Assembly (NCBI GenBank): GCA_002712305.1
Contig: PATE01000031.1
Location: forward strand, 13,688 to 47,724
DNA: 34,037 bases
Direction of reading: 5' to 3'
From: Gemmatimonadota bacterium
Lineage (GTDB): Bacteria; Latescibacterota; UBA2968; UBA8231
Every line of letters starts with the position of its first letter. The stretch's first letter is position 1. The notes under the pieces were generated by a model that was given only the letters and a program-made list of their open reading frames with translations, searched no databases and was not told the DNA's origin. Positions 18,109 through 20,520 of this stretch are shown in pieces. The position numbers and the translations under genes were made by a program.

Positions 18109-18885
18109 TCAGGCGACGGCGGCGTCGAGGGTTTCGCCTAGTTCTCGAGCCAGAGAACGATAGTTCTCGGCGCCCGTCGAGCGTGGCTCGTAGAAGATGA
18201 CGGGTTTGCCGAAACTCGGCGCCGCCGCAAGGGTGACATTCCGCTTGATGAGCGTGTCGTACACCTTCTCGTTGAAATACGACTTCACCTCAGCCGCGAC
18301 GCGCTTCGACAACTGCAGGCGCTCGTCATACATCGTCAACAGCACTCCCTCGATCTGCAGATCCGGGTTCAGATACCGTTGTACGAGTTGAATCGAGTTG
18401 AGCAGTTTGCTCAGCCCTTCCAGCGCGTAGTATTCGCATTGGACGGGGATCAACACCGAGTCCGCCGCGGTCAGGGCGTTGACGGTCAGCAACCCCAAAG
18501 AAGGGGGGCAGTCGACGATGATGAACTCGTAATCGTCGCGGACCGATTCGAGCGACTCGGACAGTCGCTGCTCTCGCCCGAGGACGGCGGCCATTTCAAC
18601 TTCGGCGCCGGCAAGCGAAATGTGTGAGGGAGCGACGTCGAGACCCGGCGTCTCCACGGTACAGATCACGGCTTCGAGGGGGGCCTGCCCGAGGATCACA
18701 TCGTACACGGAGCCGTCAGAGCGGCTCATCCCTGCCTCGCAGCCGCTGGTGGCGTTGGCCTGTGGGTCAAGATCGATCAGTAGCGTGCGATGCCCCTCCG
18801 TCGCCAGACATGCTGACAGATTGACGGCGGTGGTGGTCTTGCCGACCCCACCCTTCTGATTGGCAATCGCGATGACTCGACCCAC
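18109..18885 (-). CDS. parA: ParA/Soj-family chromosome partitioning ATPase
   Basis: Deviant Walker [49 protein letters not shown]. Confidence 0.93.
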
Positions 18886-18943: not shown

Positions 18944-19165
18944 TGACGGGGAGCGCAATATAGCCTGTCGCTGCAAGAGGCGTCAAGGCACGGAACAGGT
19001 CTCGTACTGCTCTTGCTGTTCGACGGGATGTTTAGCCGCGGCGCCTGGCTCAGAAGCTGGCAACGATCACGCCGGGCAGCCCACTTGGAGGCATGCTCAG
19101 CGCGTTCGGCGAAAGAAAAGTGTTAGACGGTAGATCTGTTTCGGTTGAGGCGAGGTCCGCCGACG

Positions 19166-19297
19166 TCAACCGGACACGCCGGCGAGCGCCGCCAGCAGTG
19201 CGCCGAGAAACAGACCGGTCGATACGAAGAAGAAGGCGCCAAGACGCATCATGACGGTGCCCTTGGAAACTCGACTTCTCGGGGTTACGCTCTCCAT
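19166..19297 (-). CDS. Putative small single-pass membrane protein (43 aa), absent from the supplied ORF track
   Basis: MESVTPRSRVSKGTVMMRLGAFFFVSTGLFLGALLAALAGVSG*. AGGAGG 9 nt upstream of ATG; basic N-terminus then about 22 hydrophobic residues. Confidence 0.6.
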   Translation of the reverse strand: MESVTPRSRVSKGTVMMRLGAFFFVSTGLFLGALLAALAGVSG

Positions 19298-19363
19298 TGC
19301 TCGATTCCTCCTCGGGGGGTCTGCTTTTAGTATCGGCAGCCCACGTGTTCCCTTTAGCCATCA

Positions 19364-19448
19364 GTGGGAATCCGTTTCCCACCTGGGGTTCTCTGAGACG
19401 GGCAGATCCTGCCGGTGGCAGCCCGCCAGCCTCAGAGAGACGCCAGGT
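19364..19448 (-). ncRNA. Putative structured RNA element between the sigma factor gene and the 43-aa membrane ORF
   Basis: Nested perfect pairings ACCTGG/CCAGGT, TCTCTGAG/CTCAGAGA, CGGGC/GCCCG and TGCC/GGCA, then adjacent hairpin GTGGGAA-ACGGA-TTCCCAC. Confidence 0.45.
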
Positions 19449-19485
19449 AGTGAGCAATGGTTGTGCCTGTCCTTGCGGCTGGGTC

Positions 19486-20364
19486 CTAGTTCTCGGCGTA
19501 GGCGCGCAGGCGCCGGTGGAATCTCGGATGACGTAACTTGCCGAGAGCCAGTTCCTTGATCTGCCGCACTCGCTCGCGTGTCAGCCGAAAACGACGACCG
19601 ATCTCATCCAACGTCATCGAGCGATCCTGGTCCAACCCGTAGTAGAGGCGCAGCACTTCGGCCTCGCGGGCCGGCAGCTTGTCCAGAGCCTCCTGCACAT
19701 CGGCACCGCGACTGAAACTGAGGAAGGTATCCTCGGCGCTGGGCTGTTGATCTGAAAGGCAGTCGAGGAGATTGAACACCCCGTCTCCCTCGGAGCCCTC
19801 GAAGGGGGCATCGAGAGATCGGACAGCGTGACTGACGGCCAGGGCCTGTTCGACCTCTTCCACGCGACAATCAAGCTTCTCGGCCACGCGCACAATCGAA
19901 GGGGGTTCACCCGCCTGTTGCAGTTCGGCCAGGGTACGAGAGACCTTGGAGAGCATGTCCACCCGGCTCAAAGGCACTCGAACCGTGGACTGCTCCTTGA
20001 GCGATTTCATGATCCCCTGTCGAACCCACCAGACCGCGTAGGAGATGAACTTGAACCCACGCTTCTCATCGAATCGTTCTGCCGCAGTGATGAGTCCCAC
20101 GTTTCCGGCACTAATCAACTCCGCCAACGTCAGACCCCGCCCCTGATACTGCTTGGAGACGGCGACGACGAAGCGCAGGTTCGCCTCAACGAGACGATTC
20201 CGCGCTTCCTCGTTACCCCGACGAATGCGGCGTGCAAGATCAGCTTCCTGTGGAGATGATAGTGGTGTCGACTCGGAGATGTCCTGCAGATAACTCGCCA
20301 AAAGGTTGTCACCTTCGGCCGACCGCGGCTCGACGGTGGCGGGAGGGCCTTTCGCTGTCGCCAT
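19486..20364 (-). CDS. rpoD: RNA polymerase sigma factor, sigma70 family (short RpoD/SigA type)
   Basis: LLASYLQDISE, NLRFVVAVSKQYQGRGLTLAELISAGNVGLITAAERFDEKRGFKFISYAVWWVRQGI, LTLDEIG-like HTH with RERVRQIKELALGKLRHP. ATG at 20364 is preceded by AAGGAGA. Confidence 0.9.
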   Translation of the reverse strand: MATAKGPPATVEPRSAEGDNLLASYLQDISESTPLSSPQEADLARRIRRGNEEARNRLVEANLRFVVAVSKQYQGRGLTLAELISAGNVGLITAAERFDEKRGFKFISYAVWWVRQGIMKSLKEQSTVRVPLSRVDMLSKVSRTLAELQQAGEPPSIVRVAEKLDCRVEEVEQALAVSHAVRSLDAPFEGSEGDGVFNLLDCLSDQQPSAEDTFLSFSRGADVQEALDKLPAREAEVLRLYYGLDQDRSMTLDEIGRRFRLTRERVRQIKELALGKLRHPRFHRRLRAYAEN

Positions 20365-20520
20365 GTCTTGTCTCCTTTTTCGTGTTCGTGACCCGATGCG
20401 GAATCGGTTTTGCATGATCGTCTGCTAGCTGATCAACGGTCCTTCTGTTCCTCGTACAACCTATGAGGACGCGGCAGGTTCCCGAAGGTTACCAACAGTG
20501 GAGTACGAATCGAATTCATG

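Follow-up and report, generated by a model that had tools for sequence, protein, structure and literature searches.

Does the structured RNA encoded upstream of an unannotated 43-codon open reading frame (ORF) belong to that ORF as a regulatory leader, or to the sigma factor gene that precedes it? A preliminary description of the locus had left both options standing. In the window, by which we mean the whole 34,037-nt stretch of DNA analyzed, the minus strand carries in order a sigma-70 family gene, a hairpin about 35 nt after its stop codon, an overlapping dyad, a promoter, AGGAGG, the 43-codon ORF (MESVTPRSRVSKGTVMMRLGAFFFVSTGLFLGALLAALAGVSG), a separate parA promoter, and parA (Table 1). 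The sequence, the helices, the AGGAGG-N9-ATG arrangement, and the ORF all lie where the preliminary description had placed them. The sigma gene has RpoD/RpoS-like NCBIfam scores that fall far under the equivalog cut-offs. The source genome (G000, 4.77 Mb) represents genus g1 of family f1, and G001 is a second g1 genome. We consider it very probable that the locus consists of two adjacent units, a hairpin at the 3′ end of the sigma mRNA and an independent, monocistronic small gene with a FliA promoter.

Table 1. Features of the locus, with positions counted from the first letter of the window.
Feature	Position	Strand	Basis
Group-2 type sigma-70 family factor gene (regions 1.2, 2, 3, 4), upstream neighbour	19486..20415	-	Pfam
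Long near-perfect hairpin, inferred 3′ end of the sigma-gene transcript	19378..19450	-	Fold of -49.5 kcal/mol
Dyad GTGGGAA-N5-TTCCCAC, just 5′ of the -35 element	19364..19382	.	Arms identical in G001
-35 element TAAA, sigma-28 type promoter	19353..19356	-	Pattern search
-10 element GCCGATAC, sigma-28 type promoter	19330..19337	-	Pattern search and relatives
Shine-Dalgarno AGGAGG	19307..19312	-	Similar purine-rich site in relatives
43-codon gene, small protein with basic N-terminus and single transmembrane (TM) helix	19166..19297	-	Coding selection, homologues
Sigma-70 type parA promoter TTGACG...TATATT, separating parA from the small gene	18957..18986	-	
ParA-family ATPase gene, downstream neighbour	18109..18885	-	Profile match

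A consensus sigma-28 promoter, missed in the preliminary description, lies between the hairpin and the ORF. It reads TAAAGGGA-N11-GCCGATAC (19356-19330, minus strand) and can be written as TAAA-N15-GCCGATAC, with 15 nt between the -35 and -10 elements; the sigma-28 consensus is TAAAGTTT-n11-GCCGATAA (PMC2859248). When one mismatch to the consensus was allowed, the site before the ORF was the sole match in the window, with 0.10 expected. Exact copies of TAAA-N14-16-GCCGATA occur four times in the 4.77-Mb genome and once in the reversed control. One of the four is the site before the small ORF and another precedes a gene downstream of fliD/fliS, which was assigned as FlgM-like by eye from the translations. 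This FlgM-like gene (L018, positions ~1630-2060, on G000:C121) has two apparently repeated segments.

The source genome encodes FliA (TIGR02479, 274.9 bits against a cut-off of 189.6) and has eight flagellin loci. Of 28 flagellin genes collected across the class, 18 have the motif TAAA-N14-17-NYCGAT(A/T) in their upstream region, compared to a mean of 0.17 and a maximum of 2 in mononucleotide shuffles, the 28 being slightly inflated as two regions were taken twice from neighbouring loci. Because the motif is found upstream of 18 of these 28 genes, the class's own flagellin promoters share the form of the small-ORF promoter.

We also compared the promoter between relatives. The -10 sequence CTGCCGATA is found 36-45 nt 5′ of the start codon in every homologue for which upstream sequence was available (genera g1, g3, g4, g5, and g7). 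The -35 element varies more: only the window genome and G012 have an exact TAAA, TCAA replaces it in G001, G005, and G009, and in g4, g7, and g3 it is unrecognizable, with only the -10 conserved there. TAAA and TCAA are thus confined to g1 and g5. In the small-gene loci of g4 and g7 (L031-L038, L063), the CGATA -10 has an A-tract, GGAAAAAA, some 23-29 nt on its upstream side, and the same tract is present before two flagellins with a weak -35 (loci L023 and L024). It may be an UP element that stands in for TAAA.

The degenerate -35 in these three genera, together with at least 10 full-length sigma-70 relatives in the genome, would fit a GCCGATA promoter recognized not by FliA but by a different sigma factor, for instance another sigma-70 paralogue, leaving only an indirect link to flagella. 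We regard this as unlikely, as the same -35/-10 pair stands before flagellin genes of the class and the FlgM-like gene, and the small gene disappears along with flagella (see below). Under the FliA reading, the small gene would be transcribed late in flagellar assembly, alongside the flagellins and flgM. Its transcript would start downstream of both hairpins and have a 5′ UTR of about 30 nt containing AGGAGG. This Shine-Dalgarno region is conserved, as the relatives have a similar purine-rich site.

The long hairpin after the sigma gene is about 73-75 nt, near-perfect, and GC-rich, with no T-run. The 121-nt element that contains it folds at -60.2 kcal/mol (z of -4.9), and none of 200 shuffles folded as well, so the structure noted in the preliminary description is real and exceeds chance. 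The hairpin alone is more stable than the best 75-nt segment (-45.3 kcal/mol) when segments were taken every 15 nt on both strands of the window. The preliminary description had four nested helices followed by a separate hairpin, GTGGGAA-ACGGA-TTCCCAC. Both structures are present, but they share sequence: the second hairpin's 5′ arm overlaps CCAGGTGGG, the 3′ arm of the long one, and the two therefore cannot both be complete at once.

The position after the sigma gene was also inspected in relatives. G007, G019, and G013, g7 relatives among them, have a canonical terminator there, with T6-T8 directly after a long GC-rich hairpin. G005, G009, and G011 have a long hairpin with perfect pairing and no T-run, and G001 has the same hairpin as the window with substitutions and likewise no T-run. 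No strong hairpin immediately follows the sigma stop codon in three g4 relatives. Between genera the hairpins share no sequence homology, as would be expected of terminators.

Since the promoter sits between the hairpin and the ORF, we read the hairpin as the 3′ end of the sigma gene and not as a leader of the small gene. The best reading, already among the options of the preliminary description as a sigma mRNA 3′ UTR, is that the hairpin forms the end of the sigma transcript, as either a U-less terminator or an mRNA-stabilizing hairpin. Such a stable hairpin just past the stop codon would end or protect the sigma mRNA.

The other option, favoured by the very stable fold, is a cis-regulatory RNA: the hairpins would form a riboswitch or attenuator in the leader of the ORF, with TTCCCAC switching between its upstream partner and GGGAA or GTGGG downstream. 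In their minimum free energy folds, the window and G001 do both pair TTCCC/GGGA with the downstream side. GGGAA and GTGGG, the proposed downstream partners, however, belong to the promoter, which places the switch strand inside the promoter and the element outside the predicted ORF transcript unless there is read-through from the sigma gene. In G001, GTGGG is changed to GCGGG and GGGAA to GGGAT. The hairpin sequence is also missing in other genera while the promoter and ORF persist, in G003 even without the sigma gene.

Covariation in relatives, raised in the preliminary description, did not emerge for the element. Of 31 pairs compared between the two g1 sequences, one changed on both sides, four changed on one side, and three were broken, which is not above shuffles for these two sequences. 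Rfam searches of the window, of the element at relaxed thresholds, and of 11 related loci returned only chance microRNA/sRNA matches below gathering scores, in agreement with the earlier failure to match the element to a known RNA class. A switch in a small-protein leader is accordingly very unlikely. A search for tRNA/tmRNA found none. A repeat family was also considered and rejected, as the 331-base query matched its own genome only once.

We return to the dyad, which can be viewed apart from RNA folding. Its center is 36 nt upstream of the -10 element, or at about -50 relative to a start predicted 6-7 nt after the -10. The arms are unchanged in G001 whereas the -35 drifts from TAAA to TCAA; in the two g1 sequences all seven pairs are standard, with no variation, and the dyad sequence is known only in g1. 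CRP centered at -49.5 activates sigma-28 RNA polymerase at the aer promoter of E. coli (PMC2859248). Like that CRP site, the dyad is placed about 50 bp 5′ of the predicted start, and by analogy it may be an activator site, although GTGGGAA-N5-TTCCCAC is no CRP site.

The ORF itself is a real gene, given the excess of synonymous changes and homologues in five genera with CTGCCGATA upstream. The unannotated 43-aa membrane protein of the preliminary description was thus well called. Homologues of 36-43 aa are encoded in g1, g3, g4, g5, and g7, all in family f1. Codon changes are 18 synonymous versus 2 nonsynonymous within g1, and 17 versus 3 within g4. Within genera, dN/dS is about 0.03-0.17. As E. 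coli has sigma-28-dependent small RNAs, the transcript might be imagined as a small RNA in which the ORF is incidental. This is extremely unlikely, with changes gathered at codon position 3, the amino acids under strong purifying selection, and the reading frame retained in five genera.

Each homologue has a basic N-terminus and one hydrophobic stretch with a mean hydropathy above 2.1. Invariant residues in the alignment include G20, F24, V25, T27, L29, G32, L35, A36, and L38. The TM helix is glycine/alanine-rich with a small-residue face, GLFLGALLA. Pfam and NCBIfam searches with the small protein gave nothing significant, a weak NCBIfam match (E of 0.034) being discounted. A phylum-wide search outside family f1 found no homologue, and a literature search on sigma-28-controlled small membrane proteins found nothing matching. 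Judged by its sequence, the protein is a new family, unmatched in Pfam and NCBIfam, under a kind of regulation that is already known.

To follow the small gene across the family, flagellin and FliA were scored in 25 f1 genomes. The ORF and its -10 element are present in 13 of the 13 flagellin-bearing genomes with an assembled locus (G000, G001, G003, G004, G005, G007, G008, G009, G011, G013, G014, G017, and G019), the G014 copy being frameshifted. The ORF is missing from each of the nine flagellin-free genomes that have the locus (G002, G015, G016, G018, and G020-G024). G006, where the locus is unassembled, and G010, where it meets a contig end, were left out as uninformative. In G012, outside the 13, the ORF is disrupted and the flagellin matches are fragmentary too. 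A split of 13/13 versus 0/9 has a probability of about 2e-6 (1 in 497,420) with kinship ignored; the counts are not independent, and the nine absences may amount to about three loss events. G005 encodes flagellins but no FliA above the cut-off, in a MAG that is 87% complete.

Two genomes separate the ORF from the sigma gene. G002, with no flagellin, keeps the sigma gene and has neither promoter nor ORF, while the flagellated G003 keeps promoter and ORF and is missing the sigma gene at the locus. The association with flagella is therefore tighter for the ORF than for the sigma gene. In g7 genomes lacking a flagellum, the sigma gene and the ORF are both gone and a mazG-like gene adjoins parA. 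Given this joint loss in g7, the sigma gene itself may be linked to motility, although the flagellum-less G002 retains it and the flagellated G003 has none at the locus.

A short, hydrophobic protein with one TM helix could also be a type-I-toxin-like peptide under the control of RNA structure. This is highly improbable for a gene that is single-copy, at a fixed locus, and lost in step with flagella; the hairpins lie upstream of its promoter, and a simple scan found no opposing sigma-70 promoter. We favour instead a protein predicted to assist the flagellar or chemotaxis machinery from the inner membrane. The peptide would insert N-in, with its basic N-terminus in the cytoplasm, into the inner membrane, where its helix could pack via the small-residue face against a larger flagellar or chemotaxis membrane protein and act as an accessory or modulator.

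Six flagellated genomes from other families of the class have no detectable homologue, so the small protein is a lineage-specific accessory and not a universal flagellar part. More tentatively, as one possibility that we hold with less than even confidence, the 36-43-aa protein may be a so far unrecognized, lineage-specific part of the chemoreceptor complex or flagellar motor in this Latescibacterota family, or a regulator of either, produced only while FliA is active and kept by every f1 member that has flagella.

Downstream, the parA leader (18986-18886, minus strand) has features of its own. No more than 15 nt separate the promoter TTGACG-N18-TATATT from a hairpin with T7 (18943-18918), which precedes a GTG start, an arrangement kept in G001. 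The hairpin looks like an attenuator or the end of a very short terminated RNA. Near the predicted parA transcript start, the motif AGGCGGTGATTAGGGYCTTCTGTA is nearly invariant in all g7 genomes, flagellated or not (L061-L065, L076, L077, and L079-L082). The observation also covers the parA leaders of L055-L060, and a shorter AGGCGGT form occurs in g4. The motif has no Rfam match and is possibly a conserved 5′-UTR element of parA. In two g7 loci, L037 and L038, the gene after parA resembles a sigma-54-dependent activator (GESGTGKE motif).

Annotation routinely overlooks small membrane proteins. For the one described here, a clear regulatory signal and coding selection are joined by a presence and absence that follow flagella in an uncultured phylum, which together give a testable functional hypothesis. 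The locus also illustrates how a stable 3′-end hairpin beside an unrecognized alternative-sigma promoter can mimic a riboswitch leader.

Compared to FliA (sigma-28) class-3 flagellar promoters, TAAA-N15-GCCGATA fits the consensus (PMC2859248) and recurs before flagellins and the FlgM-like gene; here, however, it serves a lone small gene of no known family, and its -35 is weak in several relatives. Like intrinsic (rho-independent) terminators, the hairpin is stable, GC-rich, and 3′ of a stop codon, at the place where relatives have a hairpin with T6-T8, but a T-run is lacking in the window and G001. A stable multi-helix hairpin 5′ of a Shine-Dalgarno sequence is shared with riboswitches and other Rfam leaders. 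Unlike them, the element is upstream of the promoter, has no family match, and is unconserved outside the genus. Bacterial single-TM small membrane proteins are, as a class, under 50 aa, with a basic N-terminus and one TM helix with a small-residue face. While the protein described here matches no sequence family and, unlike the class, is tied to flagella, it resembles them in all of these features.
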